The notes under the pieces are model-generated. The model saw only the letters and a list, made by a program, of their open reading frames with translations, was not told the origin of the DNA and ran no database searches. From Ectocarpus siliculosus (lineage: Eukaryota > Sar > Phaeophyceae > Ectocarpales > Ectocarpaceae): 64,000 bases of DNA. The stretch spans positions 2,148,811 through 2,212,810 of the forward strand of contig FN649732.1 in NCBI GenBank assembly GCA_000310025.1. The letters run 5' to 3'. Within the stretch, counting starts at the first letter, position 1. Every line of letters starts with the position of its first letter. A program made the translations under genes and the position numbers. This document shows positions 13,484-41,964 of the stretch, in pieces.

Positions 13484-13737
13484 TGTTTGTCGGCCGTACT
13501 CCGCGTACTTATCGGGTATTGTTTGTGTAGTGTATTAACTTCAGACGATGAGGCAACGCCCGTACCCAGGGCGCTGTCGTGCTCAGAAAGGAGGAGTGGC
13601 AGCAGGGCTGCTGCACACAACAAAAGGGGGCCCCGGTGCATCATCACCGTACCCCTACCTAAAAGGTTCTACACCATCTGCGTCACACTTGTACGTACGG
13701 CTAACATATCCAAACCATGTCCGTAGACCCACGAACA
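13484..13737 (-). repeat. 5' LTR of the copia element
   Basis: The second 254-bp LTR, at the promoter end of the minus-strand element. The gag-like frame begins about 48 bp inside it, near 13435. Confidence 0.95.
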
Positions 13738-17200: not shown

Positions 17201-19103
17201 TGAAATTTACTAATATCCCCGAAGGTCGTCTAACCGCCGTAACCACCGTATCACTTTGACGGATGCGATCGTACACCCCCTTCGCCTCAACGACGTGCAG
17301 TGGCAACTACACGCACCTGGGATGCTTCATGGACAGCCCGGATGATCGAGTTCTCGGACACAAGTTGACTGATGATGACGACACGACCGCCGAAGTACGT
17401 ATCGCAGAGAACACCGTCGGAAGGGAACTCACGCTGCACAATCTATAGTACGAAAAGTCTTGTGCTCACGCAGACACCATGCCCGCACTCGATGGTGGGA
17501 TAAACCTTGACCCACTAGCACAGTACACTGTAAGGCTGTCTCTTATGGAATCTAACTGAACGCACGGCTAGTTCAAGTGGCGCCCTTGGTTTCTATTTTC
17601 TAGCTCTTCGTGGTTGAGCTGATACTGGCGCCCCCACCGATCTGACGCTGTGCGGGTATTATTGTTCGGTTTCCAACCAGTTTTGCTACGGCTACTGCGT
17701 GGGCTTGCGAGCCCTGTGGATGGCTACCCAGTTCGGGAAGGAGTGCTGGTGCGCAACCGACGTTGATATTGACTATACGCGCCACGGAGAAGGAGCGCAA
17801 TGTAACCAGGCTTGCGCCGGCGATGAGGTATTCATGGGTGGGAAACGAATTACAGTCAAAGTGTGTCGTCCGTCGCCGATGGTTACATTGCGGCGAAAAA
17901 GACGCGGCAAGCACCATCCTTGCCGGTTGCATGCCACACAACGACACGAGACGTACAAGGTTCCGGGTGGTGGCGGAAACTATGGACTTACGTAAAATAC
18001 ATATTTTCAAGCTCTGCCACTGAAATCTCGCGTGTTTCGTACTTTTAACCCCCCCTCCAACGTTCAACTGCGACACCCGCGTGCGTGTCGGTATTATCAT
18101 CAATACCTTACAGTATTACAGTACAGGATGTACAGTAGTGGGACAATAAAACCTTTTTGAATTGGAGACAATGTCATCACACCAGCTCACTTTCGCCGCC
18201 CTTTTCTCTATGTCTGAGCCTGTTTGTCCCTGTCTTCGTCTCTCGTCCGTCTCGCTGTTTCATTGCCTATTGCTTCCCCCTCCCCCCGCCGGTTTGCTTC
18301 CACTTCACAGAACGAATCTTGCGGCGGTTTTAATGCTTTTGATTTATTCCGCATCGACTCGGAGTACACCACGAGGTATGACGTCCGACTGAGTGCTTCC
18401 TGCTTTCAAGCACATAGATAGACTTCGTGAAATGTGCCAGATTCGTACAGTATTTCCCTCACTTCATGCATTAGGTGTGGGCTCGTATTCCAGTCAACAC
18501 ACGTCAGCTGTTGTGAACTCTGTTGACCTTGGAAAACGTTACAACTGGCAACTGGCAGACATCTGTGGGCTGGTCCTGCTGCCTGCTAATATTTTGTCAT
18601 ACTGCATCTTCCCTTATGGCACGGTGCTCTCTTGAGCTCACTCCCTCCCACTCCGGAAGAATAAATTACATTTGTAACAGCGCGAGTATCTTTCGTGCGG
18701 CCTACGACTCCTGCAATCAAGCGCTGCGACACCAGAAGGAGCGTTCAGCGAGGACATCGTCCAGATCATCGAAGTCGAAGGTACTGATCCAGGTGGCGCA
18801 TATTGGGCTGACAGCTACTCGGTCGGTGGAAAGTGCTACATGCAGACCACGTTCGATCACGACATTGGCGAGGTGGAGGTGGACACACCGCAAGGCACCA
18901 TGAAAATCGAAGATCTCTTTAACCTTCTAGAACCAGGACCGGGATCTGAAGGCCGACCCCTCTACAACGATATTCAATGCGGAAACGGCCCAGTCAATTC
19001 CGATTCCTTAGGCGATGAGTTCCTCTGCCCCGGTCTGGTGGAATACGGCCGGGAAGGTTGCGGACAGATCGGTCCAATGTGGGATCTTTCTGAACTCGAG
19101 TAA
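14265..19103 (+). CDS. Gene A: secreted Cys-rich/WSC-domain protein, nine exons
   Basis: Model exons: 14265-14392, 15125-15322, 15560-15604, 15797-15994, 16189-16236, 17301-17394, 17681-17827, 18311-18375 and 18722-19103 (TAA). All introns are GT-AG. Phases fit throughout and the joined CDS is 1305 nt (434 residues plus stop). Order: signal peptide (MGRSRFCKTSMTF and a hydrophobic stretch), Cys-rich module 1, short linker exon, Cys-rich module 2, linker exon, one WSC domain (GNYTHLGCF ... CWCATD ... CNQACAGDE ... NESCGGFNAFDLFR), then an unrecognised C-terminal domain. WSC domains bind carbohydrate in fungal wall sensors and brown algal wall proteins, so an extracellular matrix or wall role is likely (inference). 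Three in-frame ATGs (14265, 14271, 14280) could start it. The one at 14280 matches the gene B start. No transmembrane segment is seen after the signal. Confidence 0.75.
15125..15322 (+). CDS. Gene A exon 2: Cys-rich module, copy 1
   Basis: A 198-nt exon, phase 2 at both ends (acceptor CACAG, donor GTAAGG). It encodes CDDTCEYTS, GTTGRTCDPTCDDGE, a Tyr-Gly-rich segment, then YGSNCRYCFND and DDRTIM. Eight cysteines are visible (near module residues 1, 5, 18, 22, 34, 46 and 49, plus one in the following 45-nt exon, which begins C-D-T-L), suggesting a compact disulfide-bonded fold. I do not recognise the family. Confidence 0.75.
15797..15994 (+). CDS. Gene A exon 4: Cys-rich module, copy 2
   Basis: Also exactly 198 nt and phase 2-2, about 70-80 percent alike in protein to exon 2 (CTDSCEYTS, TGRMCDPTCEDGD, YGSNCRYCFND). 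Like exon 2 it is followed by a short exon starting CDTL (16189-16236, 48 nt). The exon pair has therefore been duplicated as a unit, with all four exons sharing phase 2 so the frame is preserved. Confidence 0.75.
16430..16900. repeat. Palindromic CATGGA/TTTCATG repeat island in a gene A intron
   Basis: The intron between exons 5 and 6 (16237-17300) contains many copies of GGAAGTCCATG, CCATGAAA and AAACGTTTCATG in both orientations. The words are self-complementary (ACGTTTCATGAAACG-like), so the region can form hairpins. It resembles the island at 23219-23720 in gene B's first intron, but has a different word from the islands at 5050 and 20190. Confidence 0.75.
17301..18375 (+). CDS. Gene A WSC domain (three exons)
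   Basis: Exons 17301-17394, 17681-17827 and 18311-18375 encode one WSC domain of about 100 residues. Hallmarks: GNYTHLGCF, FCYGYC, ALWMATQFGKECWC, GAQCNQACAGDE, ESCGGFNAFDLFR. The same exon boundaries recur in all three WSC domains of gene B, so this three-exon cassette (phases 2-0, 0-0, 0-2) is the ancestral unit. Confidence 0.85.
18722..19103 (+). CDS. Gene A terminal exon: unrecognised C-terminal domain
   Basis: 382 nt including TAA. The acceptor chosen is ATCAAG before CGCTGCG, because it alone gives phase 2 and matches the equivalent site in gene B. The encoded domain of about 127 residues holds KCYMQTTFDHDIG, PQGTMKIEDL, EPGPGSEGRPLYNDIQCGNG, CPGLVEYG and GCGQIGPMWDLSELE. Four cysteines and the Pro/Gly pattern are fixed between A and B. 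I cannot name a family. Confidence 0.75.
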
Positions 19104-20189: not shown

Positions 20190-20375
20190 TACATAATCCG
20201 CCCATGGGCGCCACGTTGTGCCCATGGGCTGCCCGCAGACAGCCCACCGGCCGCACATGGGCAGAGCGGGGCCCACGAGCAAGTCCATCGGCAGCCCATG
20301 GTGGGCACGTCGTGGGCAGTTCAAGGGCTGCCCATGAACCACGGGCAGTCCATGGACCGTCAATGAGCGCCCTTC
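20190..20375. repeat. CCATGGGCAG repeat island, first
   Basis: Repeated CCCATGGGC, GGCAGCCCATGG and GGGCAGTCCATGG words in both orientations. The core is the palindrome CCATGG, here combined with GGCAG spacers in place of the GTACC spacers of the 5050 island. Confidence 0.75.
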
Positions 20376-20586
20376 AACCGGAACCGCTGTACATACCACA
20401 AAACAAAAAAAAGGCAATACCCATATCGCCAAATACCCTAACCCCCAAGCCCACACGATACGTGCTACGGTAGGTTGGCGCCGACTGACTCCAGCGCGAG
20501 GTTGATGTGTCAGTGGCCACGTCCTACATGTAAGTTGATATGCCGGTGGCGAAGGTCTGGGTTGAAGTGCACACGGTAGCCACTTC

Positions 20587-20700
20587 GTGGGCAGTCAGTT
20601 CATGGCCTGCCCGTGGGGTCGTTCATGGACTGCCCATGGGTGGCCCCATGGGCAGTCCATGAAGTGTGCCCATGGGCAGCCGGCCCATGGGCGACCCATG
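20587..20700. repeat. CCATGGGCAG repeat island, second
   Basis: The same word family as 20190-20375 (GGGCAGTCCATGG, GCCCATGGGC) resumes after about 210 bp of unrelated sequence. Confidence 0.75.
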
Positions 20701-22949: not shown

Positions 22950-23035
22950 ATGAGGTGCTCTCAGTTCTGCAAGGCCTCGGCGATCATTACGGTCGCTTCT
23001 CTTCTGGCACACCAGACCGGCGCCCAACCAGCCTC
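22950..23035 (+). CDS. Gene B exon 1: signal peptide
   Basis: 86 nt ending in phase 2 at GCCTC|GTGAGT. MRCSQFCKASA is followed by ITVASLLAHQTGA, a short hydrophobic core with a plausible cleavage site near GAQ-PAS. The donor context GTGAGTGGG(A/C)TAGG is the same as in gene A, supporting the start. Confidence 0.75.
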
Positions 23036-26000
23036 GTGAGTGGGATAGGTCATTGTTGCCCATTTAGTGAGATGAGTCGCGAGGCGTGTTTGGCTGTTTC
23101 CAAACCTTCGTATGGTGCGTCCTGCGTTGTTGAACGTTGCACAGGCAGGGGAAACGTCTGGATCTCAATATTTCCTGTAGGTAACGTCTTTCAATGACTA
23201 CCACGTACACAAACGTCCGTGGAATTCAGCTTCCATGGGAAGTCGCGGTCAGTTGAAGGATTGTTCCTGGCAGTCGTTTCAAAAATGTGGTCCATGTGGA
23301 AGCCCGTGGAAGCTTCCATGGAAGTAGCATCCAAGCTCGTGCAACCTCCAGGATGTTTCCGTTGCGCACCTACAATTGCAGTATATTTCACGGAAAGTTT
23401 CGCGGAATGCCATAGAGACCCATGGAGGACCGCGGGAGTTTATGGCACTCCGTCGTACATGCCACGTACATCGACGGAACTCCAAGGTGGAACATACGAC
23501 TCCCGCCCCTTTCCGTGCGATGCGATGGAGTTCCATGGAAACCCGTGGGTCGCCAAGGAAACAATGGAGTCCCGGCCTAACACAACGAGCCATGGAGTGC
23601 CTGCGCTTTGGAAATTCTTGGTCATTTACGTGGCATTTGTACGTTTGGTTCCTTGCAGTATCGAAGGATATGCCATGGCATTCCGTGCCGTTCCATGGGT
23701 TTTTTCGGACCTAAAGCCCAGACTCAATTCCATTCGGTATTCGTTACAAGCTCGAGGCTGTTGCATGGTGCAAGCAAGTGACGTATTCTTCATCTTCGCG
23801 GTATGAATGTGCACGTTTCATCCGCTTGAATGCAGCGAAGGCAGGCAAGACGCCAACGGCCTATTTCTATATGGCAACACTATTTAATCGTCTTGGTTTT
23901 AAGGAACGAATCGGTTTGAGATCATCGTTTGCTCTTCGTGGTGGTAGCAGGACCACTGCTACTATTGAAAAAACGAGACGGTTTTTTGCTTACTGTAGAG
24001 TTAAGGGAAAAATTAATAATCAAACTTTGGTTCGTGAAACGTCAAGCATTTTATCATCCAAGATAATCCCACAGCCGCGTCACTTCGACCGATGCAACAT
24101 ACCCTGTCGCCCTAACGATATGCAGCGGGAACGAATACACGTACGTGGGATGTTTCAAAGACACCAAGGAAGATCGAATTTTGGGGGACCAGATGACTAA
24201 TGGCCAGGAAATGACCACCGAGGTACGTATCGCGCAAGACTATTAGGCTTGGGTTCTAGAAAAGACATCGGGATCGGAATGCCACGATGCACTCTCTAGT
24301 TTTTTGGTCATATTCTGCACCAACCACGTTCGACACAAAGAGCCGGTTGGTATTGATCAATCAGCACACAAAAGGCTGCCTGTTTTGGTTCCACTGGCGC
24401 CAGCCTCGTTCGACAGGCATTGTTCATTGTGTCTGTGCCCGAAGTGCGACATACGAGTACCAGTCGGAAGCTTAGCCTCTAACCTAGAGTCCGAGTTGCT
24501 TGGGTTCTTGTGAATCGAGATGTTCTGGTCGCCCTTGGTGTTTCTTCACCAACCCTATTCGCTTCTTGGCTAAGCATAGGTTATCACCCATCGGGCATGC
24601 GCTGGTTGTGCATCTTGTTGCGCTTTCGTGCAGTTCTGCTACAACTACTGCATTGGCTTAGGGGCCCTGTGGATGGCCACCCAGTACGCGATTGAGTGTT
24701 GGTGCACAAACGAGGTCGAACTCGACTATGCCCGCCACGGAGCGGGAGCGCAATGTAACTACGATTGCGCGGGTGATGAGGTACGAAATACTTGGAAACG
24801 AATCACGGTCAGGAGCTCGTCGCGCGCGGACGATGTGCACATGGCCATGTGCAAGACGTAGCATGCACGACCCTTTGTCTGCTGCTTTTCACGACCACAT
24901 GGGACGTGCAAGATTGTGCGTAGTGGTGTGAACTGCCCTGAATGGCACACTGAACCCGCTACCACTTAAGAACCTGACAGTGAACGAACAACAAGACAAG
25001 AACAATGTCAGACCGGACCGCGGTGGGGTGACTCGAAAAGAGCACTTTAGCAAGTACGATAGCGGTTCATGATCTGCAGAGGAAATATGAACTCGAACCT
25101 TGGTGGTGCGTTTTGTATGCACGTGATCTCTAGGTGAACATAGGTTTGACGGGCATGGGAAAATCTGATATTGTTTTCTCTCGTTTTCCGAAATCGGCCG
25201 TTGCTTTCCAGCATTTTCCGCACGTCGAGCCCCTCCGTTTAACTGCCTCACCCGCTTGCTTATCGGCAATCCCGGCAATCCTAGCGGGAACAGTCCTGAA
25301 ACTGATTCCGAAGCCATGCGTAGTCGGTCTCTGCCCCTCGATATATCACGGCTCCAACCTCACCACCCATAACACCAAGTCACTTCGCCGTCCCGTTGTT
25401 TACCTCTATCCGTCGCCGCTGATTCTTCCTCCATCTCTGCCTTCTCCCTAACCCGCCCGTGTTCTTGCACTTCGCAGAGCGAGTTTTGCGGCGGGTTTGA
25501 TGCTTTCGATTTATACCGCACCGACTCGGACTCCATCACTAGGTGTGACCTCCGACTGCGTGCCTCGCGAATGTGTTTTTTTAATTCAAACACAAAAAGC
25601 TTGAATGTATGCATATTTGAGCAACTGTGCAAAACCTAAGCAGTCTAGGCTCCTTGAAAGGATATCTGCCAATCATTCAATGTCCCAGCCCAAGCAACCA
25701 GAAGTAGCCCCAACGCAAAAGAAATTCTTGCCAAGAACCGTGCGTAGGATCGAAACTAATGAAGCGGTGAACCTAACAACCAAGGACACCCCTGCCCCCT
25801 CTACCCCACCATACCCTGCCCGCACGTGTACAACGTGCCGCCATGCACGAGCGGTATGAAGACCAAACTAGAGATGTTGTGGAAGCGTCAAAACCGCAAC
25901 AATGGTTTCGGCTATATCCAAGATTACGGGCAGCGAAAAACAACTGAAATCGGCCGCACCGCTTAGAAACCGTTACAGTACTCCAGGTGGTCATCAGTAT

Positions 26001-29000
26001 AATTTGTCGCATAGAGGCCACGTGCGCGTGAGTTCGCACTCTCAGCTCTGTTGTTGGGGCCGTGATATGGAAGGCCCTCCTTCGAAAAACAATTCTCGAA
26101 CTAAAGCGAGGGGGAAGCTGAGGGTACGCTGACACAATGTTTGCAGTACAGCCCCGCTCCGGTGACCACCAGCATGCTCTCTCCCTCGTCTATTGCTCTC
26201 CGTGTCATCTTCGTCTGCTTCTCGTTATACTCTCGCAGCGACGGCGACACAACCCCCACGCCCGTCGACGGCGAAACCACCAACGAGCAGGGCAACGGCA
26301 CCGAAGGGTAAGACCAATACCAAGAAGTATGATGTCGCTTTCCCCTCGAAGTCTGCGCGATCGTCGTGTCTCGGCACCAGAGAGGCCCAAGTCTCGCGGT
26401 GTTTCTCTTTCCAAGAAGCTGTCGATTTCAAACCACTTGGGACTTCAACGATTGTGTGGCGGATACTAGCAGCGAATGGATGTTTCGTCTCAGTCCATGA
26501 CATGCAGTATACGTGCAGAATGAGATCGGCTGTACTACTTCGAAACCATTACCTTACCTTCAGGTGGTCATCAGTAGAGTCTGTCGCATAGAAGACGCGA
26601 GTGCGCTCTCGCTCTCAGCTTTGTTGATGACCCTGGAATATTGTTTGGATGTACATATGTTACAAGTCAGCGCTGGCTTGTAGCATGTAGCACAGTGGAT
26701 ATGCTGTACATTTAATCAATATTCGAGTCTTTCAGGTGTATCCCAGACTTTTTTCCCGGAATATTGGCGTTTCAAATGGTCCACGAGGGATTCAAGGACC
26801 CCGGTTGTACTTTTGGAAAGATTTACAGCATATCCACTATGCTACAAGTCAGTGCTGACTTGTAGCATAGTGGATATTCTGAACATCTTAACAAATATTG
26901 AAGGCCCTCGGTCGATAAACGCCATGTTCGATTCTCAGGTTAGAGTGAGAGAGATGTTGAGGACAAAATCTGCAGTAGAGCTCCGCTCCGGTGCCCACCA
27001 GCATACTCACTCCATCGTCCGTTCCTCTCCGTGCCAAATTCGTCTGCTTCTCAATATCCTTTCGCAGAGACGGCGGCACAGCTCCCACGCCCGTCGACGG
27101 GGAAACCAACAACGACCAAGGCAACGGCACCGAAGGGTAAGATCAATGCCAAGATCAATGCCAAGAAGTATGGTGTATCTTTCCCCTCTACGTCTGGCTG
27201 GTCGACGTTGTCTCGACACGAGAAAGGGACGTGTCTCGAGGTTTCTCTTTACAAGGCGCTCTCGGGGTTTCTGTCGTACTACTGGATGAGTTCGTATAGC
27301 CGATGCTACGGGTGTGGTATACCCGCCGGAGTTCGGGACATCGCGTGTTGGACTGGTCGGTGTTAGTGACACGTGGATTTTTGATGCCACACCTGGCTGC
27401 TGCACAGCGTGATCCGGACGATACATTGGGCCATATCTACCCTAACACCGCTCTATTCCCTTCAGATCATGAATGACATGATAATGTTCGGCCGAGCTAG
27501 CGTTGAGAATGAAATGCTGATCAAGCTTTGTTCGTGAAATCACGCCAACATCGTCAACCATCGTATCCCTTCCGCCGATTCAATCATTCCCTGCTTTCGC
27601 CCTGACGGAGCGCAGTGGGAACGATTACACATACGTAGGATGCTTCAAGGACAGCCAGCAAGATCGCATATTGGGGGACCAGCTGACAAATTCCCAGGAA
27701 ATGACTACCGAGGTAAGTATCGCAGAGTCTATGCCTGGGTTCAATGTAGAAAACTTTGGAATCAGAATTTCACGATTTGTGTTGGCGATACAGAATCCAT
27801 GTGCGACACAAGAGTCCGTTATTGATAGTTATTTCGAAAAGCTACCTGTTTTGGTGCCCGTTCCACTGACACCGGGCTCGTTAGAGCGGCATAGGTCGTT
27901 GTTTCGGGCCCTGTAATTCGACTTACAAATACGACTCCGACGTGCAGCCTCGCACCACGATTCTGTGTTGCTTGGTCTCTTCTCAATCGAAATATTCTGC
28001 TCGCCCTTGGTGCTACCTCCTCGTATCGTGTCGCTTCTTGGCTGAGTTTACGCTGCCACCCATCGGCCTGACGCTGGTTGTGTATTTGTTGTGCGTTCGT
28101 ATAGTTTTGCTACGACTATTGCATTACGAAGGACGCCACATTTATGGCTACTCAGTACGCGATTGAGTGCTGGTGCACATCCGAGCCCGAGGATCAGGTC
28201 GACTATGCCCGCCACGGAGAGGGAGCGCAGTGTAACTACGATTGCGCCGGCGATGAGGTACGAAAGGCTCGGAAGCAAATAACGGTCAGGAGCTTGTCGC
28301 CCGCGTGCGATGTTCACATTGCGACGTACAATACGTACATTGTAGAAAGCACGACCGTCATCTGCTGCGTTTCACGACCACATGGGACGCGTGTGGTAGC
28401 GCGTAGTGCCGTAGAATACGTTCATGAAACGATAATCTCGTAATCTCTTCCCGAATGTTCTCTTCCCGAATGTTGGCGTAAAGGGCAAGTAAAACTTGCC
28501 TCTGCTTGCCCTTGCTGTCGAAAATCTGCCGTTGCTCTCCCGCTTTTCCGAACTTGACAGTAGACCCCACCAAAGTTCAACTTCCACATCAGCTGGCCTG
28601 CCTGGATTCACGTCAACTCTAAACAGTGAGGACAATCCAACCTCTTGAACTCATTCCAAAGCCACCCATATTCGGTCTCCCAGCCCTCGAAATACCAAGC
28701 ACCCTAAGTATTTGCTTTTAGCGTCAGCAAGCTTCTCAGCCCTGTTCTCAATCTCTCTGGTCTCGTCTGCGTCTCTATCTCTCTCGGTTTCTCTGTGCGT
28801 GTGTCTGCCCTCCACCTATCTTCCTCCACATCATAGGACGAGTCGTGCGGTGGTTTTGATGCTTTCGATCTATACCGCATCGGCGCGGCCTACACTACGA
28901 GGTGCGAGCATGTATATATATATCGGAGCCACGTTGTTTACAGTTTGGCTGAATGGCCATGTCGGCAAAACGTTTCATGGTCTGCTCTAACTATTCAGAA

Positions 29001-32000
29001 GCAAAAGGGGAGCAAAATCCATGTCTTGTTCAATTCCAAGATGACACGAGCGTACGCCATCAGCAAAATCGGCCGTACGGCTTGGACCCTCCCTTCGGTG
29101 GATATCAGCAGAATCTGTCACCCAGAGGTGACGGGCGCTTTAGAACAATCAGCTCTGCTGTTGAAGCTGGTATAGAGAAGGCCTTCGGTCGATAAATCCC
29201 ATTGTCGATTCTCAAATTGAGGTGGTGGTGAAGCTGAGAGTAGCGGGACACACCGTTTGCAGTAGACCACTAATCCAGTGACCACCAGCATACTCACTCC
29301 CTCGTCCGTTCCTCTCCGTGCCAACTTCGTCTGCTTCTCATTATCCGCTCGCAGCGACGGCGACACAGCTCCCACGCCCGTCGACGGCGAAACCAACAAC
29401 GATCAAGGCAACGGCACCGAAGGGTAAGATCAATGCCAAGAATGATGGTGTCCCTTTCACCTTCAAGTCTGGGCGGTCGTCGTGTCCGGGCACCAGAGAG
29501 GCCGATATCTCGCGGTGATTTTCTTTCGAAGGCGCTGTCGATTTCAATTCACTTGGAACATCAAAGATTGTGTGGCGGACACTGGGAGTGAATGGATGTT
29601 TCGTCTTAGTCCATGATGACATGCAGTATACGTGCCGAATGAGATCGACTGTACAACTTCGAAACCATTACCTCACCTCCAGGTGGTCATCAGTATAGAA
29701 TCATCGCATAGAAGACGCGAGTGCGCTCTCGGTCTCAGCCGTGTTGATGAAGCTCGAACATGGAAGGCCCTCGGTCGAAACGCGCCTTGTACAAGTTCCA
29801 GATTGAGGGGGCGGGGAAGTTGAGGGAAGGCCGACACAAAATCTGCAGTAGAGCTCCGCTCCGGTGCCCACCAGCATACTCGTGCCCTCGTCCGTTCCTC
29901 TCTGTACCAACTTCGTCTGCTTCTCGATATACTCTCGCAGAGACGGCGGCACAGCTCCCACGCCCGTCGACGGCGAAACCAACAACGATCAAGGCAACGA
30001 CACCGAAGGGTAAGATCAATGCCAAGAAATATGATGTCGCTTTCCCCTCCAAGTCTGGGCGGTCGTCGTGTCTCGGCACGAGAGAGGCCTAAATCTCCCG
30101 GTGTTCCCCTTTCCAAGGCGCTGTCGATTTCAATTGACGTGGAACATCAAAGATTGTGTGGCGGATACTGGGAGCGAATGGATGTTGCGTCCCAGTCCAT
30201 GATGACGTGCAGTATACGTGCCAAATGAGATCGACTGTACTTCTTCGAAACCAGTACCTTACCTCCAGGTGGTTATCAGTATAGAATCGTCGCATAGAAG
30301 ACGCGAGTGCGCTCTCGGTCTTAGCCGCGTTGATGAAGATCAAACATGGAAGGCCCTCGGTCGATAAACGCCGTGTTCGATTCTCAGGTTAGAGCGAGAG
30401 GGATGTTTAGGTTAGGCCGACACAAAATCTGCAGCAGAGCTCCGCTCCGGTGCCCACAAGCATACTCTCTCCATCATCCGTTCCTCTCTGTACCAACTTG
30501 GTCTGCTTCTCGTTACACTCTCGCAGAGACGGCGGCACAGCGCCCACGCCGGTCGACGGTGAAGTCAACAACGACCAAGGGAACGGCACCGAAGGGTAAG
30601 ATCAGTGCTGAAAAGTATGATGTCGGTCGCTCCTCCAAGTCTGCGCGGTCGTCGTGTCTCGGCGCGAGAGAGGCCTATATCTCCCGGTGTTTCCCTTTCC
30701 AAGGCGCTATCTTGGAACATCAAAACTGCGTAGTGGACACAGGGAGCGAATAGACGTTTCGTCTCAATCCATGATGACGTGCAGTGTACGTGCCAAATGA
30801 GATCGACTGTACTACTTCATTACCTTACCTCCAGGTGGCCATCAGTATAGAGTCTCTCGCATAGAAGACGCGAGTGCGCTCTCGGTCCTAGCCGTGTTGA
30901 TGACGCTCGAACATGGAAGGCCCTCGGTCGATAAACGCCGTGTTCGATTCTCAGGTTTGATTGAGAGGGATGTTTAGGGTAGGCCGATACAATATCTGCA
31001 GTAGAGCTCCGCTCCGGCGCCCACAAGCATACTCTCTCCATCATCCGTTCCTCTCTGTACCAACTTCGTCTGCTCCTCGTTACACTCTCGCAGAGACGGC
31101 GGCACAGCGCCCACGCCGGTCGACGGTGAAGTCAACAACGACCAAGGGAACGGCACCGAAGGGTAAGATCAGTGCTGAAAAGTATGATGTCGGTCGCCCC
31201 TCCAAGTTTGGGCGGTCGTCGTGTCTCGGCACCAGAGAGGCCAATATCTCCCGGTGTTTCCCTTTCCAAGGCGCTGTCTTGGAACATCAAAACTGCGTAG
31301 TGGACACTGGGAGCGAATAGATGTTCTGTCTCAATCCATGATGACATGCCGTATACGTGCCGAATGTGATCGGTTGTACTGCAGTACCTTGAAACCGGTA
31401 CCTTACCTTCAGGTGATCATCAGCAGAATCTGTCGCATCGAAGACGAGAGTGCGCCCTCAGTCTCAGCGGTGTTGATGACGCTCGAATATAGAAGGCCCT
31501 CGGTCGACAAACGCCGTATTCGATTCTCAGGTTAGATTGAGAGGGATGTTGAGGCCAAAATCTGCAGTAGAGCTCCCCTCCGGTGCCCACCAGAACACTC
31601 ACCCCCTCGTCCGTTCCTTTCCGTGCCAACTTCGTCTGCTTCTCGTTATACTCTCGCAGAGACGGCGGCACAGCCCCCACGCCCGTCGACGGCGAAGCCA
31701 ACAACGATCAAGGCAACGACACCGAAGGGTAAGATCAATGCCAAGAAGTGTGATGTCGCTTTCCCCTCCAAGTCTGCGCGGTCGTCGTGTCTCGGCACCA
31801 GAGAGGCCTACATCTCCCGGTGTTTCCCTTTCCAAGGCGCTGTCGATTTCAACCACTTGGAACATCAAAGAGTGCGTGGCGGATACTGGCAGTGAATGGA
31901 TGTTGTGTCTCAGTTTATGATGACATGCAGTATGCGTGCGAAATGAGATCGGCTGTACTACTTCGAAACCATTACCTTACCTTGAGGTGGCACATAAGTA

Positions 32001-35000
32001 GACTTTGTCGCACAGACGACGAGAGTGCGCTCTCGCTCTCAGTTTTGTTGATGAAGCTCGAACATAAAGAACCTCGGTCGATAAACGCCGGGTTCGAGTC
32101 TCAGGTTCGAGTAAATGGGTTGTTTAGGGTAGGCCGACACAAAATCTGCAGTAGAGGTCCGCTACAGTACCCTCACTCCCTCGTCCGTTCCTCTCCTTGC
32201 CAACTTCGTCTGCTTCTCGATATGCTCTCGCAGAGACGGTGGCACAGCCCCCACGCCCGTCGACGGCGAAGCCAACAACGATCCAGGCAACGACACCGAA
32301 GGGTAAGATCAATGCCAAGAAGTGTGATGTCGGTTGCCCCTTCCAAGTCTGGCCGGTCGTCGTGTCTCGGCACGAGAGAGGCCTACATCTCCCGGTGTTT
32401 CCCTTTCCAAGGCACTGTCCATTTCAAATCACTTGGAACATCAAAGATTGTGTGGTGGACACTGGGAGCGAATGGATGTTGCGTCTCAGTCGATGATGAC
32501 ATGCAGTATACGTGCCGAATGAGATCGGCTCTTTTGCGGTACTTCGAAACCATGACCTTACCTCCAGGTGGTCATCAGTATAGAATCTCTTGCATAGAAG
32601 GCGAGAGTGCGCTCTCGTCTTCAGCCGGGTTGAGGAAGCTCGAACATGGAAGGCCCTCGGTCGATAAACGCCGTGTTCGATTCTCTGGTTTTGAGTCATA
32701 GGGAAGTTAAGGGGAGGCCGACACAAAATCTGCAGTAGAACTCCACTACAGTGCCCACAAGCATACTCACTCCCTCGTCCATTCCTTTCCGTGCCAACTT
32801 CGTCTGCTTCTCAATATTCTCTCGCAGAGACGGCGGCACAGCCCCCATGCCCGTCGACGGCGAAGTCGACAACGATCAAGGCAACGACACCGAAGGGTAA
32901 GGTCAATGCCAAGAAGTATGATGTCTTGCCCCTACAAGTTTGCACGGTCGTCGTGTCTCGGCACCAGAGAGGCCCACACCTTGCGGTGTTTCCCATTCCA
33001 AGGCTCTGTCGGTTTCAAACCACTTGGAACATCAACGATTGTGTGGCGGATACTGGGAGCGAATGGATGTTGCGTCTCAGTCCAAGATGACATGCAGTAT
33101 ACGTGCCAAATGAGATCGGCTATTGTGCGTTACTTCGAAATCATTACCTTACCTTCAGGTGGTCATCAGTATATAATCTGTCGCGTCGAAGACGCGAGTG
33201 CGCTCTCGCTCTCAGCCGTGTTGAGGAAGATCAAATATTGAAGGCTCTCGGTCGATAAACGCCGTGTTCGATTCTCAGGCTTGAGTGAATGGGTTGCGGA
33301 GGGTAGGCCGACACAAAATCTGCAGTAGAGCTCCGCTCCGGTGCCCACAAGCATACTCACTCCCTCGTCCTATTCTCTCTGTGCCAACTTCGTCTGCTTC
33401 TCGTTATCCTCTCGCAGGGACGGCGCCATAGCCCCCACGCCCGTCGACGGCGAAGCCAACAACGATCAAGGCAACGGCACCGAAGGGTAAGATCAATGCC
33501 AAGAAGTATGATGTCGGTTGCACCTCCAAGTTTAGGCGGTCGTCGTGTCTCGGCACCAGAGAGGCCCACATCTCCCTGTGTTTCCCTTTCCAACGCGCTG
33601 TCGATTTCAAACCACTTGGAACATCAAAGAGTGCGTGGCGGACACTGGGGGCGAATAGATCTTTAGGATCACATGCAGTATGCGTGCCGAATGTGATCGG
33701 CTGTACTACAGTACCTTGAAACCAGTACCTTACCTTCAGGTGATCATCAGTATAGAATCTGTCGCGTCGAAGACGCGAGTGCGCCCTCGTTCTCAGCCGT
33801 GTTGAGGAAGCTCGAACATGGAAGGACCTCGATCGATAAACGCCGTGTTCGATTCTCAGGTTTGAGTGAGAGCGATGTTGAGGGAAGGCCGACATAAGAT
33901 CTGCAGTAGAGCTCCGCTCCGGTGACCACAAGCACACTCACTCCCTCGTCCATTCCTCTCCGTGCCAACTTCGTCTGCTTCTCAATATGCTCTCGCAGAG
34001 ACGGCGGCCCAGCCCCCACGCCCGTCGACGGCGGAACGAACAACGATCAAGGCAACGACACCGAAGGGTAAGATCAATGCCAAGAAGTGTGATGTCGCTT
34101 TCCCCTCCAAGAATACGCGGTTTTCGTGTCTCGGCACGAGAGAGGCCTATTTCTCTCGGTGTTTTCTTTTCGAAAGCGCTGTCGATTTCGACTACTTCGA
34201 ACATCAAAGATTGTGCGGCGGACACTGGGAGCTAATGGATGCTGCGTCTCAGGCCATGATGACATGCAGTATACGTGCCGAATGAGATCAGCTGTACTAC
34301 GGTACCTTGAAACCAGTACCTTACCTTCAGGTGGTCATCAGCATAGAATCTCTCGCATAGAAGGCGAGTGTGCGCTCTCGCTCTCATCCGTGTTTAGGAA
34401 GCTCGAACATGGAAGGCCCTCGGTCAATAAACGCCGTGTTCGATTCTCAGGTTTGAGTGAGAGCGATGTTGAGGGAAGGCCAACATAAGATCTGCAGTAG
34501 AGCTCCGCTCCGGTGACCACAAGCACACTCACTCCCTCGTCCGTTCCTCTCCGTGCCAACTTCGTCTGCCTCTCGTTATCCTCTCGAAGGGACGGCGGCA
34601 CAGCCCCCACGCCCGTCGACGGCGAAGCCAACAACGATCAAGGCAACGGCACCGAAGGGTAAGATCAATCCCAAGAAGTGTGATGTCGCTTTCCCCTCCA
34701 AGCCTGCGCGGTCGTCGTGTCTCGGCACCAGAGATGCCTACATCTCTCGGCGTTTCCCGTTCCAGGGCGCTGTCGATTTCGACTACTTGCAACATCAAAG
34801 GTTGTGCGGCGGACACTGGGAGCTAATGGATGCTGCGTCTCAGGCCATGATGACATGCAGTATACGTGCCGAATACGACGGGCAACTTCGCGGTACTTCG
34901 AAACCATTACCTTACACTCAGGTGGTCATCAGTATAGAATCTCTCGCATAGAAGGCGAGTGTGCGCTCTCGTCCTCAGCCGGGTTGAGGAAGCTCGAATT

Positions 35001-38000
35001 TTGAACGACCTCGGTCGAGAAACGCCGTGTTCGACTCTCGGGTTAGAGTGAGAGGGATGTTGAGGGTAGGCCGACACAAAATCTGCAGTACAGCTCCGCT
35101 CCGGTGCCGACAAGCACACTCACTCCCTCGTCCATTCCTCTCCGTGCCAACTTCGTCTGCTTCTCAATATGCTCTCGCAGAGACGGCGGCCCAGCCCCCA
35201 CGCCCGTCGACGGCGGAACGAACAACGATCAAGGCAACGACACCGAAGGGTAAGATCAATGCCAAGAAGTGTGATGTCGCTTTCCCCTCCAAGAATACGC
35301 GGTTTTCGTGTCTCGGCACGAGAGAGGCCTATTTCTCTCGGTGTTTTCTTTTCGAAAGCGCTGTCGATTTCGACTACTTCGAACATCAAAGATTGTGCGG
35401 CGGACACTGGGAGCTAATGGATGCTGCGTCTCAGGCCATGATGACATGCAGTATACGTGCCGAATGAGATCAGCTGTACTACGGTACCTTGAAACCAGTA
35501 CCTTACCTTCAGGTGGTCATCAGCATAGAATCTCTCGCATAGAAGGCGAGAGTGCGCTCTCGCTCTCATCCGTGTTTAGGAAGCTCGAACATGGAAGGCC
35601 CTCGGTCAATAAACGCCGTGTTCGATTCTCAGGTTTGCGTGAGAGGGATGTTGAGGGTAGGCCGACACAAACTCTGCAGTAGAGCTCCGCTCCGGTGACC
35701 ACAAGCACACTCACTCCCTCGTCCGTTCCTCTACGTGACAACTTCGTCTGCTTCTCGATATCCTCTCGCAGAGACGGCGCCACAGCCCCGACGCCCGTCG
35801 ACGGCGAAACCAACAACGATCAAGGCAACGACACCGAAGGGTAAGATCAATGCCAAGAAGTGTGATGTCGGTTTCCAGCCTGCGCGGTCGTCGTGTCTCG
35901 GCACCAGAGAGGCCAATATCTCCCGGTGATTCCCTTTCCAAGGCGCTGTCGATTTCAATTCACTTGGAACATCAAAGTTCGCATAGCGGACACTGGCAAC
36001 GAATGGATGTTTCGTCTCAGTCCATGATGACATGTAGTTTCGTGCCGAATGAGATCATCTGTACTACTTCGAAACCATTACCTTACCTTCAGGTTGCATT
36101 CAGTAGAATCTGTCGAAGAGAAGACACGAGTGCGCTCTCGTTCTCAGCTTTGTTGGCCAAGTTCAAACATGGATGGCCCTCGGTCGAAACACGCCTTGTA
36201 CAAGTTCGAAGTTGAGGGGGCGGGGAAGTTGAGGGTAGGCAGACAGAGCATTTGCAGTAGACCCCTGCTCCGGTGACCACCAGCATTCTCACTCCATCGT
36301 CCGTTGCTCTCTATACCAACTTCGTCTGCTTCTCGTTATCCTCTCGCAGAGACGGCGGCACAGCCCCCACGCCCATCGACGGCGAAACCAACAACGATCA
36401 AGACAACGGCACCGAAGGGTAAGATCATTTCCAAGAGGTGTGATGTCTCTTTCCCCTCCAAGTCTTGTTGGTCGTCGTGGTCTCTGCAGGAGAGAGGCCC
36501 ATATCTTGAAGTGATTCTCTTTCCAAGGTGCTATCGATTTGAATTCACTTGGAACATCAACGATTGTGTGGCGGACACTGCCAACGAAAACATATTTCGT
36601 CTCAGTTCATGATGACATGCAGAGTACATAGAGAATCAACTCGGCTGTACGTAGAAACCAGTACCTTACGACTCATGCAACGGTAGGGGTGCACGAATCC
36701 CTTCTGAGTCTCAAACGAGAGAAGCTCCATATCTCAGCCTGAAATGGACATTGACACAACATGAAAATATGACGTGACAGGTAATCCGATGGGCTAGATG
36801 AAACGCCATTGAAATTTGAAATCGGAGTTGATATTCGAAGGTTATTGGTTGGTTATTCATCTGAATAACCGAAGGTTTTGGGCCGTAATGTGCTATCCCT
36901 ACCGTTGCATGACTCTTACCTTCAGGTGGTCATCAGTAGAGTCTGTCGAATAGACGACGCGAGTGCGCTCGTACTCTCAGCTTTATTGATGAAACTCGAA
37001 TATTGAAGGCCCTCCGTCGATAAACGCCATGTTCGATTCTCAGGTTAGAGTGAGGGGGGTGTTGAGGGTAGGCCCACACAAAATCTGCAGTAGAGCTCCG
37101 CTCCGGTGCCCACCAGCACACGCACTCCCTCGTCCGTTGCTCTCCGTGCCAAATTCGTCTGCTTCTCAATATCCTCTCGCAGAGACGGCGGCACAGCTCC
37201 CACGCCCGTCGACGGGGAAACCAACAGCGATCAAGGCAACGGCACCGAAGGGTAAGATCAATGCCAAGATCAATGCCAAGAAGTATGGTGTATCTTTCCC
37301 CTCTACGTCTGGCTGGTCGACGTTGTCTCGACACGAGAAAGGGACGTGTCTCGAGGTTTCTCTTTACAAGGCGCTCTCGGGGTTTCTGTCGTACTACTGG
37401 ATGAGTTCGTATAGCCGATGCTACGGGTGTGGTATACCCGCCGGAGTTCGGGACATCGCATGTTGGACTGGTCGGTGTTAGTGACACGTGGATTTTTAAG
37501 GCCACACCTGGCTGCTGCACAGCGTGATCCGGACGATACATTGGGCCATATCTACCCTAACACCGCTCTATTCCCTTCAGATCATGAATGACATGATAAT
37601 GTTCGGCCGAGCTAGCGTTGAGAATGAAATGCTGATCAAGCTTTGTTCGTGAAATCACGCCAGCATCGTCAACCATCGTATCCCTTCCGCCGATCCAATC
37701 ATTCCCTGCTTTCGCCCTAACGAAGCGCAGTGGGAACGATTACACATACGTAGGATGCTTCAAGGACAGCCAGCAAGATCGCATATTGGGGGACCAGCTG
37801 ACAAATTCCCAGGAAATGACTACCGAGGTAAGTATCACAGAGTCTATGCCTGGGTTCAATGTAGAAAACTTTGGAATCAGAATTTCACGATGCAATGTGT
37901 AGTGTCTTGGCGATACAGAATCCATGTGCGACACAAGAGTCCGTTGATTTTGATAGTCATTCGAGAAGCTACCTGTTTTGGTGCCCGTTCCACTGACACC

Positions 38001-41000
38001 GGGCTCGTTAGAGCGGCATAGGTCGTTGTTTCGGGCCCTGGAATTCGACTTACGAGTACGAGTCCGACGTGCAGCCTCGCATCATGAGTCTGTGTTGCTT
38101 GGTCTCTTCTCAATCGAAATATTCTGCTCGCCCTTGGTGCTACCTCCTCGTATCGTGTCGCTTCTTGGCTGAGTTTACGCTGCCACCCATCGGCCTGACG
38201 CTGGTTGTGTATTTGTTGTGCGTTCGTATAGTTTTGCTACGACTATTGCATTACGAAGGACGCCACATTTATGGCTACCCAGTACGCGATTGAGTGCTGG
38301 TGCACATCCGAGCCCGAGGATCAGGTCGACTATGCCCGCCACGGAGAGGGAGCGCAGTGTAACTACGATTGCGCCGGCGATGAGGTACGAAAGGCTCGGA
38401 AGCAAATAACGGTCAGGAGCTTGTCGCCCGCGTGCGATGTTCACATTGCGACGTACAATACGTACATTGTAGAAAGCACGACCGTTGTCTGCTGCGTTTC
38501 ACGACCACAGGGGACGCGTGTGGTAACGCGTAGTGCCGCAAAATACGTTCATGAAACGATAATCTCGTAATCTCTTCCCGAATGTTGGCCTAAAGGGCAA
38601 GTAAATATTGCCTCTGCTTGCCCTTGTTGTCAAAAATCTGCCGTTGCTTTCCCGTTTTTCCGAACTTGACAGTAGACCCCACCAAAGTTCAACTTCTACA
38701 TCAGCCGGCCTGGCTGTATTCACGTCAACTCTAAACAGTGAGGACAATCCAACCTCTTGAACTCATTCCAAAGCCACCCATATTCGGTCTCCCAGCCCTC
38801 GAAATACGAAGCACCCGAAGTATTTGCTTTTAGCGTCAGCAAACTTCTCAGCCCTGTTCTCAATCTCTCTGGTCTCGTCTGCGTCTCTCTCTCTCGGTTT
38901 CTCTGTGCGTGTCTCTGCCCTCCATCTATCTTCCTCCACATCATAGGACGAGTCGTGCGGTGGTTTTGATGCTTTCGATCTATACCGCATCGGCGCGGCC
39001 TACACTACGAGGTGTGAGCATGCGCCTGAGTTCTTCAAGACTACATATATATATATCGGAGCCACGTTGTTTATAGTTTGGCTGAATGGCCATGTCGGCA
39101 AAACGTTTCATGGTCTGCTCTAACTATTCAGAAGCAAAAGGGAAGCAAAATCCATGTCTTGTTCAATTCCAAGATGACACGAGCGTACGGAATCAACAAA
39201 ATCGGCCGTACGGCTTGGACCCTCCCTTGGGTGGATATCAGCAGAATCTGTCACCCAGAGGAGACGCGCGCTTCAGAACAATCAGCTCTGCTGTTGAAGC
39301 TGGGATAGAGAAGGCCTTCGGTCGATAAACGCCATTTTCGATTCTCAAGTTGAGGTGGTGGTGAAGCTGAGACTAGCGGGACACACCGTTTGCAGTAGAC
39401 CCCTAATCCAGTGACCACCAGCACACTCACTCCCTCGTCCGTTCCTCTCCGTGCCAACTTCGTCTGCTTCTCATTATCCGCTCGCAGCGACGGCGGCACA
39501 GCTCCCACGCCCGTCGACGGCGAAACCAACAACGATCAAGGCAACGACACCGAAGGGTAAGGCCAATGCCAAGAATGATGTTGTCCCTCCCCCCTTCAAG
39601 TCTGGGAGGTCGTCGGTCTCGGCACCAGAGAGGCCGATATCTCGCGGTGTTTCCCTTTCCAAGGCGCTGTCGATTTCAAACCACTTGGAACATCAACGAT
39701 TGTGTGGCGGACACTGGGAGCGAATGGATGTTTCGTCTCAGTCCATGATGACATGCAGTATACGTACCGAATGAGATCGGCTATTTTGCGGTACTTCGAA
39801 ACCATTGCCTTACCTCCAGGTGGCCATCAGTAGAGTCTGTCGCATAGAAGACGCGAGTGCGTTCTCGGTCTCAGCCGTGTTGATGAAGCTCGAATATAGA
39901 AGGCCCTCGGTCGATAAACGCCGTGTTCGATTCTCAGGTTTGAGTGAGAGGGATGTTGAGGGAAGGCCGACACAAAATCTGGAGTAGAACTCCGCTCCGG
40001 TGACCACCAACATACTCACTCCCTCGTCCGTTCCTTTACGTGACAACTTCGTCTGCTTCTTGTTATCCTCTCGCAGAGACGGCGGCACAGCTCCCACGCC
40101 CGTCGACGGCGAAACCAACAACGATCAAGGCAACGACACCGAAGGGTAAGATCAATCCCAAGACGTATGATGTCGTTTTCCCCTCCAAGTCTGCGCGGTC
40201 GTCGTGTCTCGGCACCAGAGAGGCCTATATATCGCGGTGCGTCTCTTTCCAAGGCGCTGTCGATTTCGACTACTTTGAACATCAAAGTTCGCATAGCAGA
40301 CACTGGTGGCGAATGGATGTTTCGTCTCAGTCCATGATGACATGCAGTATACGTGCCGAATGAGATCGGCTGTACTACAGTACTCTGAAACCAGTACCTT
40401 ACCTTCAGGTGGTTATCAGCAGATCTGTCGCATAGAAGACGCGAGTGCGCTCTCGCCCTCATTCGTGTTGATGAAGCTCGAACATGGAAGGCCCAAGGTC
40501 GATTATCAGCGTGTTCGATTCTCAGGTTAGCGTGAGAGGGATGTTGAGGGTAGGCCGAAACAAAATCTGCAGTAGAGCTTCACTCCGGTGCCCACCAGCA
40601 TACTCACTCCATCGCCCGTTCCCCTACGTGACAACTTCGTCTGCTTCTCGTTGTCCTCTCGCAGAGACGGCGGCACAGCCCCCACGCCCGTCGACGGCGA
40701 AACCAACAACGATCAAGGCAACGGCACCGAAGGGTAAGATCAATGCCAAGAAGTATGATGTTTCTTTCCCCTCCAAGTCTTGTTGGTCGTCGTGGTCTCT
40801 GCAGGAGGGATGCACTTGCCTCGGTGTTTCTCTTTTCAACGTGCTGTCGATTTCAAACTACTTGGAACATTATAGATTGTTCGGCGCACACTGGGGGCGA
40901 ATGGATGTTTCGTCTCATCAGTCCATGATGAGATGAAGCTGTATCGCCTAGAATCCCTTACCATACTCCAGGTGGCCATCAGTAAAATCTGTCGCATAGA

Positions 41001-41964
41001 GGACACGTGCGGGTGTGTTCGCACTCTCTCAGCTCTGCTGTGAGACGTCGAACATGGAAGGCCCTCGGTCGTAGATCGCCGTGTTTGATCTTCAGGTTTC
41101 CGGAAAGGGGCAAGCTGAGGGAAGGTCGCCTGAACACTTGCCGTAGAGTCCTGCTCCGGTGACCACCAGTATGCTGAATTCCTCATATAATCCTTTGCAT
41201 GCAATGTTCTTCTGCTTCTCGATACCCTGTCGCAGAGACGGCGACACAGCTCCTACGCCAGTCGACGGCGGAACCGACAACGATCAAGGCAGCGGCACGG
41301 AAGGGTAAGACCACTACCAAGAAGTATCGTGGTCGATTTCCCCTCCATGTCTCGAACGGTCGCTGTGGTCTCGGCACGAGAGAGGGACATGTCTCGGTGA
41401 TTCTATTGCTAAGGCGCAGTCGCTTTTGTCATCCTATACGTTTGTAGAGCCGAAAATACCGGAGTAGTATGCATAAGTCCGCCAGATTTTGACATCGCGT
41501 TTTGGACTGATCCGTGTTTACGACCTGTGTATCTCTCATGCCATCTCCTACTGTTGCGAAGTGAAATGGAGACTACCATAAGCGATGTGACATTAGAAGG
41601 AGCGTTCAGTGAGGACATCGTCCGGATCATCGACGTCGAAGGTGTTGTTCCAGGTGGCGCAAGTTGGGCTGACAGCTACTCCGTCGGAAGCAAGTGCTAC
41701 ATGCAGACCACGTTTGACCACGGCATTGGCGAGGTGGAGGTGGACACACCGCAAGGCACCATGAAAATCGAAGATCTATTTTTCCTTCTAGAACCTGGAC
41801 CCGGATCTGAAGGCCGACCCCTCTACAACGATATTCAATGCGGAAACGGCCCAGTCAATTCCGACAATATACTTGATGAAATCGTTTGCCCTGGTCTGGT
41901 GGAATACGGTATTGAAGGCTGCGGCCAGATCGGTCCATTGTGGGATCTTTCAGAGCTCGAGTAG
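22950..41964 (+). CDS. Gene B: secreted three-WSC protein with 20 microexon linkers, 31 exons
   Basis: Model: signal exon 22950-23035; WSC1; 2 microexons; WSC2; 14 microexons; WSC3; 4 microexons; terminal exon 41583-41964 (TAG). Coordinates are in the module entries. All introns are GT-AG, every junction is in phase, and the sum is 2787 nt, 928 residues plus stop, with no internal stop. The start ATG at 22950 is the one homologous to gene A (MRCSQFCKASAIIT, then a hydrophobic stretch and TGAQPAS). The product would be an extracellular string of three carbohydrate-binding WSC domains joined by acidic Thr/Pro/Asn/Asp linkers of 46, 322 and 92 residues, ending in the domain shared with gene A. 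A cell-wall or matrix role is inferred. Alternative splicing of the microexons would change only linker length, because each is 69 nt and symmetric. No transmembrane segment seen. Confidence 0.8.
23219..23720. repeat. Palindromic CATGG-core repeat island in gene B intron 1
   Basis: Many TTCCATGGAA, CCATGGA and GTGGAAG words in both orientations, related to the island in gene A's intron at 16430-16900. The paralogues therefore carry similar palindromic islands inside introns although the surrounding intron sequence has diverged. Confidence 0.65.
24126..25542 (+). CDS. Gene B WSC domain 1 (exons 2-4)
   Basis: Exons 24126-24222, 24634-24780 and 25478-25542. Hallmarks: GNEYTYVGCFKDTKEDRILG, FCYNYC, ALWMATQYAIECWC, GAQCNYDCAGDE, SEFCGGFDAFDLYR. 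This copy is the most diverged of the three in gene B and its middle exon is 147 nt as in gene A. The other two have 153 nt, so WSC1 is the one closest to the gene A arrangement. Confidence 0.85.
26239..27136 (+). CDS. Gene B microexon array 1 (2 exons)
   Basis: Microexons 26239-26307 and 27068-27136, each 69 nt, phase 2-2, with acceptor TCGCAG and donor GAAGG|GTAAGA. They encode 23 residues beginning DG(D/G)T and ending TEG. Exon 1 is the most diverged of all (TTPTP, TNEQGN). A 252-bp MITE lies in the intron between them, accounting for the longer spacing (829 instead of about 590 bp). Confidence 0.85.
26642..26893. mobile_element. MITE-like insertion 1
   Basis: A 252-bp non-coding insertion flanked by direct AATAT (26637-26641 and 26894-26898). 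Imperfect terminal inverted repeats: TGTTTGGATGTACA at the left against TGTTAAGATGTTCA (reverse complement of the right end), 11 of 14 matching. The sister unit at 36990-37010 has an uninterrupted AATAT, which is the empty site. Internal palindromes TACAAGTCAGCGCTGGCTTG occur near both ends. Confidence 0.75.
27616..28901 (+). CDS. Gene B WSC domain 2
   Basis: Exons 27616-27712, 28105-28257 and 28837-28901. GNDYTYVGCFKDSQQDRILG, FCYDYCITKDATFMATQ, ECWCTSEPEDQVDYAR, CNYDCAGDE, DESCGGFDAFDLYR. The protein is identical or nearly so to WSC3, including introns, showing a recent block duplication. Confidence 0.85.
29355..37251 (+). CDS. Gene B microexon array 2 (14 exons)
   Basis: Fourteen exons of exactly 69 nt: 29355-29423, 29941-30009, 30527-30595, 31094-31162, 31660-31728, 32234-32302, 32828-32896, 33418-33486, 33999-34067, 34590-34658, 35181-35249, 35772-35840, 36350-36418, 37183-37251. 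Unit spacing is 566-594 bp except the last (833 bp, containing a MITE). Each has a pyrimidine-rich tract, CTCTCGCAG acceptor (CTCGAAG before 34590) and GGGTAAG donor. The peptide starts DGGTAPTPVDGE (variants DGAIAPTP, DGGPAPTP, APMPVDGE) and ends (N or S)(D)QGN(D/G)TEG. It has five or six acidic and no basic residues per unit, so the linker is highly acidic and probably disordered. Substitutions occur, but no indel and no stop is found in any of the 14, while the introns carry indels. Confidence 0.88.
36670..36915. mobile_element. MITE-like insertion 2
   Basis: A 246-bp element with terminal inverted repeats of 19 bp and one mismatch (GACTCATGCAACGGTAGGG at the left, its complement at the right), flanked by TTAC (36666-36669 and 36916-36919). 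Removing the element and one TTAC restores the GTACCTTACCTTCAGG sequence found in all other units. It has no coding capacity. Confidence 0.88.
37731..39011 (+). CDS. Gene B WSC domain 3
   Basis: Exons 37731-37827, 38232-38384 and 38947-39011. Sequence and exon lengths match WSC2. The third exon is again followed by a microexon array, so the block WSC plus linkers is the duplicated unit. Confidence 0.85.
39488..41304 (+). CDS. Gene B microexon array 3 (4 exons)
   Basis: Exons 39488-39556, 40077-40145, 40665-40733 and 41236-41304, all 69 nt, phase 2-2. The last (DGDTAPTPVDGGTDND...) is diverged, like the first in array 1, while the middle two match the consensus. Donor GAAGG|GTAAG in each. Confidence 0.86.
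41583..41964 (+). CDS. Gene B terminal exon: C-terminal domain shared with gene A
   Basis: 382 nt, the same length as the gene A terminal exon. Acceptor CCATAAG before CGATGTG gives phase 2. Residues KCYMQTTFDHGIG, GTMKIEDLFFLLEPGPGSEG, IQCGNG, VCPGLVEYG and GCGQIGPLWDLSELE correspond one to one with gene A. Function unknown. Confidence 0.78.

Follow-up and report, generated by a model that had tools for sequence, protein, structure and literature searches.

The subject of this study is a gene on the forward strand of contig FN649732.1 (assembly GCA_000310025.1) of the brown alga Ectocarpus siliculosus, lying in a stretch of 64,000 nt that we call the window and whose positions are used throughout. 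Three blocks of exons, twenty in all and each 69 nt long, follow its three WSC domains, and each exon encodes an acidic unit of 23 residues. We consider it likely that the gene encodes a WSC protein with acidic spacers that lengthen and shorten through unequal crossing-over, the repeating element being an exon-plus-intron unit of about 590 bp.

Twenty equal linker exons in a WSC gene

Both strands of the window were scanned with a 68-nt consensus at up to 26 mismatches, and 20 units were found between 26239 and 41304, all on the + strand and all of 69 nt. Every unit is flanked by AG and GTAAG (the acceptor is CGCAG in 19 units and CGAAG in one) and is entered and left in phase 2 (20/20). An earlier note on this DNA, made from the letters alone, had described twenty 69-nt exons with their own acceptors, GTAAG donors and symmetric phase, and the scan agrees with it in each of these respects. 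The note had also spoken of one tandem array of microexons. The 20 units stand, but they are not a single run, as the WSC domains split them into blocks of 2, 14 and 4; moreover, a microexon is usually defined as an exon at or under about 30-51 nt, and 69 nt exceeds this limit. When the 189.5-Mb genome was searched at the DNA level with one unit (186 nt), 20 candidates were scored and 20 matched, all being the units described here, and no unit array was found elsewhere in the genome at that sensitivity.

The gene is laid out as exon 1, WSC domain 1, two units, WSC domain 2, 14 units, WSC domain 3, four units and a C-terminal exon (Table 1). The gene starts at 22950, outside the span 25478..41964 given in the earlier note. 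The N-terminus encoded by exon 1 is near-identical in the gene models P0054 and P0001 of Ectocarpus sp. 4 and sp. 6, and the module of WSC domain 1 is in phase 2 at entry and exit and in phase 0 at its inner junctions, as are the inner junctions of the other two WSC triplets. The uninterrupted 2787-nt frame of the note was reproduced by joining 31 exons (20 units and 11 others), with a single terminal stop, as long as the last acceptor is placed at 41583. On the other hand, three models from other Ectocarpus (P0005, P0016 and P0081) read ETETTPSDVTI(E/Q)GAF directly after the last unit, and an acceptor 21 nt upstream of 41583 in the window gives EMETTISDVTLEGAF with the phase unchanged. Given the reading in these three models, 41562 is probably where the last exon begins, and the frame would then extend to 2808 nt and the protein to 935 aa.

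The Pfam family PF01822 (WSC) matched the protein in three stretches with 146.3 bits against a curated cut-off of 27.8; no other family reached its own cut-off in this search, for which the 928-aa version with the 41583 acceptor was used. The units are all acidic, in accordance with the earlier claim of an acidic linker between WSC domains, and the spacers make up 49% of the protein chain. The gene encodes a probably secreted protein that has three WSC domains, the carbohydrate binding of which is termed putative in a passage of PMC12879055, and ends in a conserved C-terminal domain. A single run of N occurs in the window (100 N at 10192-10291), and it lies outside the gene.

The split codon at each unit-unit junction is GG|N, which is glycine whatever N is. 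Seventeen units start with A or G, while U1, U3 and U17, which stand directly after a WSC domain, start with C, and their junction codon AG|C is serine. With phase-2 junctions and the GGN codon, the gain or loss of a unit would therefore alter the length of a spacer and nothing else. If the intron after a unit were retained, the donor GTAA would be read as GGG TAA, an immediate in-frame stop, in all 20 units. As predicted from the exon and intron sequences, the frame stays intact however many units are joined, whereas intron retention ends the chain; retention of these introns could possibly act as a truncation switch.

We aligned the 20 units together with their flanks (290 and 225 nt), and defined the near flanks as positions -200 to -1 and +1 to +150. 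The mean pairwise identity was 0.911 in the exon columns versus 0.80 in the near flanks, and exon identity exceeded flank identity in 185 of the 190 unit pairs. Indel events summed over the 190 pairs amounted to 0 in the exon and 592 in 390 flank columns, and none of the 378 69-base windows off the exon (which overlap one another) stayed at 69 nt throughout the 20 copies, as the exon does. Conservation is also high in the nearest 40 nt of flank (0.84-0.87), as would be expected of splice signals. Length, frame and splice sites are clearly under constraint. The variation of the flanking introns had been pointed out in the earlier note, and its statement that the exons never change in length is correct for the window, although 3 of the 16 units of Ectocarpus sp. 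4 are nine residues longer (32 residues). The same alignment bears on the possibility that the 590-bp repeat is a non-coding intronic satellite and the exon reading an accident. The repeat does span the intron, and the flanks nearest to the exon are well conserved, as noted above. Nevertheless, chance or a satellite was rejected on the exon-versus-flank identity, the indels and the constant exon length next to variable flanks, and the agreement of phase through 31 exons, together with the units being read as coding in other Ectocarpus models, leaves this possibility hardly credible.

Probable growth and turnover of the array

Fifteen of the 19 start-to-start distances between units fall in 566-594 bp, and most of the second linker is matched by itself at an offset close to this length (Table 1). 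A larger segment is duplicated in addition, in which U2-WSC2-U3-U4-U5 corresponds to U16-WSC3-U17-U18-U19; this copy gave rise to the third WSC domain and the units that border it on either side. WSC domains 2 and 3 differ in 0 of 105 residues and 1 of 315 exon bases, whereas the four introns between U2 and WSC2, within WSC2 (two) and between WSC2 and U3 differ from their copies in 60 of 1885 bases (Fisher p 0.0013). The U3-U4 intron (68 of 515 bases differ) was left out of this first test as it is much more diverged; with it included, the comparison becomes 1/315 exon bases versus 128/2400 intron bases (p 3e-6). As the differences in the exons are far below those in the introns, the copied WSC domain was held by selection. 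On a smaller scale, U11 and U13 have identical exons and flanks 95% alike, and U5 and U6 have identical exons and flanks 94% alike, both of which are signs of recent local copying.

Among 81 proteins obtained from three protein searches and examined for units, 9 carry them, all from Ectocarpus. The best protein matches were gene models of Ectocarpus species, among them one of sp. 6 (95% over 73% of a shortened query) and a full-length relative of 910 aa in sp. 4 (75%). The sp. 4 model shares the layout with three WSC domains but has 16 units (2, 12 and 2). Nine units were counted in a partial model of sp. 8, 8 in that of sp. 6 (which is without the C-terminal domain), 3 in that of CCAP 1310/34, 4, 1 and 3 in three fragments of sp. 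12, and 2 and 2 in two fragments of E. fasciculatus. The copy number therefore varies between the gene models of Ectocarpus species, as would fit the change of domain spacing by copy number that the earlier note proposed.

The unit before the C-terminal domain is of the GGTDNDQ type in the window, sp. 4, CCAP 1310/34 and the sp. 12 fragments P0016 and P0081, and the partial sp. 8 model ends with a unit of this type. The last units of the window, sp. 4, P0016, CCAP 1310/34 and sp. 8 are 1-3 residues apart from one another. Compared with the other units of its own protein, the last unit differs by 5-9 residues in sp. 4 and by 6 in CCAP 1310/34; in the window the corresponding values are 3-7 (U3 alone ties at 3), and in sp. 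8 they are 2-6, so that the two ranges overlap there. The inner units of sp. 4 are on average 1.4 residues apart from one another, but 6.4 from those of the window, 6.4 from sp. 8 and 5.2 from sp. 6, so that homogenisation within the species is plain for the sp. 4 array. Fixed edges and a changing middle fit unequal crossing-over.

Altogether, we propose that one linker exon of symmetric phase was most likely the origin of the array. From this starting point, the exon-intron unit of about 590 bp would have been multiplied by unequal crossing-over, which we infer as the process from the copies themselves, and one larger duplication would have added a WSC domain and its adjoining units.

Several observations weigh against this proposal or narrow it. 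The count of 20 units comes from one assembly, and the exon model is drawn from genomic sequence and protein gene models. Three of the nine models with units (P0001, P0006 and P0054) read as coding stretches that match introns of the window, and the models are thus not clean evidence of splicing. In addition, the frame is open for 89-134 nt before the acceptor of all 20 units, so longer exons are possible in places. The inner units of the window and sp. 6 differ by 2.3 of 23 residues as compared with 2.8 within the window, and those of the window and sp. 8 by 3.5 as compared with 3.6 within sp. 8; these distances leave sp. 4 as the sole source of evidence for homogenisation within a species. 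As for the residues, the units gave a pooled dN/dS of 0.42, for which a bootstrap over codons gave a range of 0.16-1.10; because this range reaches 1.10, constraint on the unit residues is suggested and not more. Finally, U2 and its copy U16 diverge by 2.9% in their exons, as do U3 and U17, a value within the 1.5-4.0% of the four introns that surround the copied WSC domain; such similar divergence implies that the linker residues are at best weakly held. We presume that most or all of the units are spliced in.

Table 1. Features of the WSC gene and its neighbour, in positions of the window
Feature	Position	Strand	Details and basis
Exon 1	22950..23035	+	signal-peptide-like start MRCSQFCKASAIITVASLLAHQTGAQPAS; phase 0 to 2
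WSC domain 1, three exons	24126-24222, 24634-24780, 25478-25542	+	exon joining, Pfam
Linker 1	26239..27136	+	U1 26239-26307, U2 27068-27136; 69 nt each, phase 2/2
WSC domain 2, three exons	27616-27712, 28105-28257, 28837-28901	+	exon joining, Pfam
Linker 2	29355..37251	+	fourteen 69-nt units, U3-U16; unit scan, exon joining
U3-U9, starts	29355, 29941, 30527, 31094, 31660, 32234, 32828	+	
U10-U16, starts	33418, 33999, 34590, 35181, 35772, 36350, 37183	+	
WSC domain 3, three exons	37731-37827, 38232-38384, 38947-39011	+	exon joining, Pfam
Linker 3	39488..41304	+	four 69-nt units, U17-U20; starts 39488, 40077, 40665, 41236
Last exon, C-terminal domain without Pfam family	41562..41964	+	acceptor 41562 by three other models
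Tandem array of exon-plus-intron units of about 590 bp	29282..36619	+	self-match, offset 586, 85.6%
Duplicated segment	26894..30623, copy at 36999-40761	+	92% over 3787 aligned columns
Neighbouring paralogue	14271..19103	+	WSC exon triplet plus C-terminal domain; linker unit absent

Paralogues, other WSC genes and the C-terminal domain

The paralogue next to the gene carries two copies of a Cys-rich domain (15108-15323 and 15786-15995), followed by one WSC domain and the C-terminal domain, and is close to P0008 of Ectocarpus sp. 12. A second paralogue (C109) likewise combines the C-terminal domain with a WSC exon triplet and has no linker exon; over the pieces compared by eye, it reads identically to the E. 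siliculosus protein P0012. A third (C489) possesses one linker exon of 81 nt, phase 2 on both sides, with the intron position as in the focal gene; it encodes DIDDGPSPTPVVDEPEPTPPPVQEEE, and the gene model P0011 reads it likewise save for single residues. This linker shares P-T-P-V in an acidic setting with the 23-residue unit, a likeness too short to prove descent. Three further proteins (P0010, P0028 and P0029) have WSC and C-terminal domains with repetitive linkers of 131, 208 and 172 residues at the linker position. They are similar to the focal protein in that two domains are joined by long low-complexity linkers, but the linker sequences are unlike the 23-residue unit, and the three are known as proteins only.

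At least 102 WSC matches were detected in the genome at E up to 0.001 (the best 150 of 244 candidates were scored), clustered in many cases on C10, C21, C139, C244 and C456. Fourteen WSC stretches (L001-L008 and L034-L039) were compared with themselves by BLAST and the top 5 or 6 rows were inspected; no long exon array was apparent among these rows, which cover a small sample of the WSC matches. The sampled stretches gave 0 to 10 self-match rows versus 90 for the focal gene. L001-L007 and L034 had no self-matches in this comparison. In L008 a tandem repeat of 63 bp is present about four times, and in L035 one of about 229 bp about three times; L038 has a stretch of 880 columns that is duplicated, and L036, L037 and L039 have short pairs.

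The C-terminal domain matched no family in the Pfam search and no chain of the PDB by sequence at E up to 1. It is common to brown-algal and bacterial or metagenomic proteins, 38 of which were aligned and share 22 invariant positions, and AlphaFold2 modelled it (41584-41961) with a mean predicted local distance difference test score (pLDDT) of 91.3. Some of its relatives also carry what we take to be discoidin or carbohydrate-binding domains. An old gene transfer between algae and bacteria, in either direction, is possible. One holder of the domain is named as a Granulosicoccus metagenome-assembled genome (MAG).

Elsewhere in the window, an exact direct repeat of 257 nt occupies 7463-7719 and 13484-13740. 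Palindromic repeats of the CCATGGGTACCCATGGG type are densely arrayed at 5051-5279, and similar CCCATGGGC stretches are seen near 20200-20700. About 34 GCT triplets (92% matches) lie at 10041-10141, near the assembly gap at 10192-10291.

Probable spacer function and relation to known exon arrays

The three spacers comprise 46, 322 and 92 residues, with net charges of -11, -78 and -23. At 0.36 nm per residue, their maximal reach would be about 17, 116 and 33 nm, an upper bound that holds for fully extended chains. The units are acidic Pro/Thr/Gly/Asn spacers, and the net charge is -3 to -9 in every one counted, namely the 20 units of the window and 45 units of eight other models (P0081 is outside the count). 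The spacer is presumably extended and disordered, and we infer that selection acts on its length and charge. A calcium-binding role of the acidic unit was also considered, and dropped.

It can also be imagined that each unit bears one N-glycan and that the array is a glycan-bearing rod. An N-x-S/T sequon is present in most units of the window (19/20), sp. 6 (7/8), sp. 8 (7/9), CCAP 1310/34 (3/3) and two fragments of sp. 12 (3/5), yet in few units of sp. 4 (3/16) and of two fragments of E. fasciculatus (1/4). A glycosylated rod of this kind is improbable, and N-glycan carriage as the main function was rejected on the sp. 4 units. Since acidity is kept in all counted units and the sequon is mostly absent in sp. 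4, spacer length and charge are more likely to be the function than glycosylation.

A different possibility is that the unit multiplies like any tandem repeat, that selection removes frame breaks only and that the number of units has no function. The difference in unit number between gene models is in line with this, as are the dN/dS range, which includes 1, and the fast evolution of the linker residues (inner units of the window and sp. 4 differ in 6.4 of 23 residues, whereas of the 105 residues of each domain 10 differ for WSC2 and 8 for WSC3). Such neutrality does not readily account for the acidity of every counted unit, nor for the recurrence of long repetitive linkers of other sequence at the same position in P0010, P0028 and P0029. 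We regard a functionless array as possible, if on balance doubtful.

The unit number could furthermore be set by splicing, with the inclusion of units varying by transcript or tissue and giving a ladder of spacer lengths. This is compatible with growth by unequal crossing-over, and the symmetric phase of all 20 units and their near-identical splice sites would permit it; brown-algal ROCO genes, which have equal phase-2 exons, have annotated splice variants according to passages of PMC11378527. The uniform GTAAG donors fit constitutive inclusion equally well, and tuning by splicing seems unlikely to us.

The earlier note knew of no WSC protein with such an array. Literature searches, mostly without subscription papers, gave no report of WSC linker exon arrays by title or opening of the abstract among the matches listed. 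The claim needs trimming, however, because arrays of equal-length phase-2 repeat exons are known in the ROCO genes. According to the passages of PMC11378527, brown-algal ROCO (LRR-ROC-COR) genes encode one LRR per 72-bp phase-2 exon, with up to 49 repeats in Ectocarpus; the LRR so encoded is ligand-binding, with sites reported to be positively selected. The focal gene (20/20 units) resembles them in its tandem equal-length phase-2 exons with one repeat each, but theirs encode LRRs whereas the focal exon encodes an acidic spacer in a probably secreted protein with no LRR or TPR match above the Pfam cut-offs. Exon shuffling and alternative splicing are also reported, in passages of PMC12879055 and PMC11378527, for brown-algal NB-ARC-TPR genes, in which the repeat is a TPR of a candidate immune receptor and not a spacer.

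The micro-exon genes (MEGs) of schistosomes are commonly held to have symmetric exons, although the passages of the paper cited next do not confirm this, and one MEG study reportedly describes tandemly repeated 81-base exons. MEGs encode secreted proteins and have many short exons of 3-81 bp and many isoforms (passages of PMC10526429). They belong to another lineage, and the likeness to the focal gene that we claim is one of build. What is new in the focal gene is a spacer, instead of a binding repeat, in a WSC protein that has related genes with 0 and 1 linker exons.

WSC-domain proteins are named among the proteins of the brown-algal wall in a review legend (PMC8307928), and in a passage of PMC6347293 as possible mechanosensors in relation to tip growth. 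The array might serve as an adjustable molecular ruler, in which recombination between the 590-bp units and splicing set the reach from one WSC domain to the next and graded spacers are matched to the cell wall; we regard this as rather unlikely. If true, the reach between wall-binding WSC domains would change at the population level in steps of exactly 23 residues, each worth at most about 8 nm, with a second setting made per transcript by splicing. The proposal of spacers that grow and shrink by unequal crossing-over has a broader meaning. The brown-algal habit of building repeats from equal phase-2 exons is used here for a spacer in a probably extracellular protein, outside the candidate immune receptors. 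With 0, 1 and 20 linker exons among related genes in one genome, and 2/14/4 versus 2/12/2 units between E. siliculosus and sp. 4, the gene offers a clean case for the origin and growth of an exon array, and a testable link between the copy number of a unit and the spacing of putative wall-binding domains.

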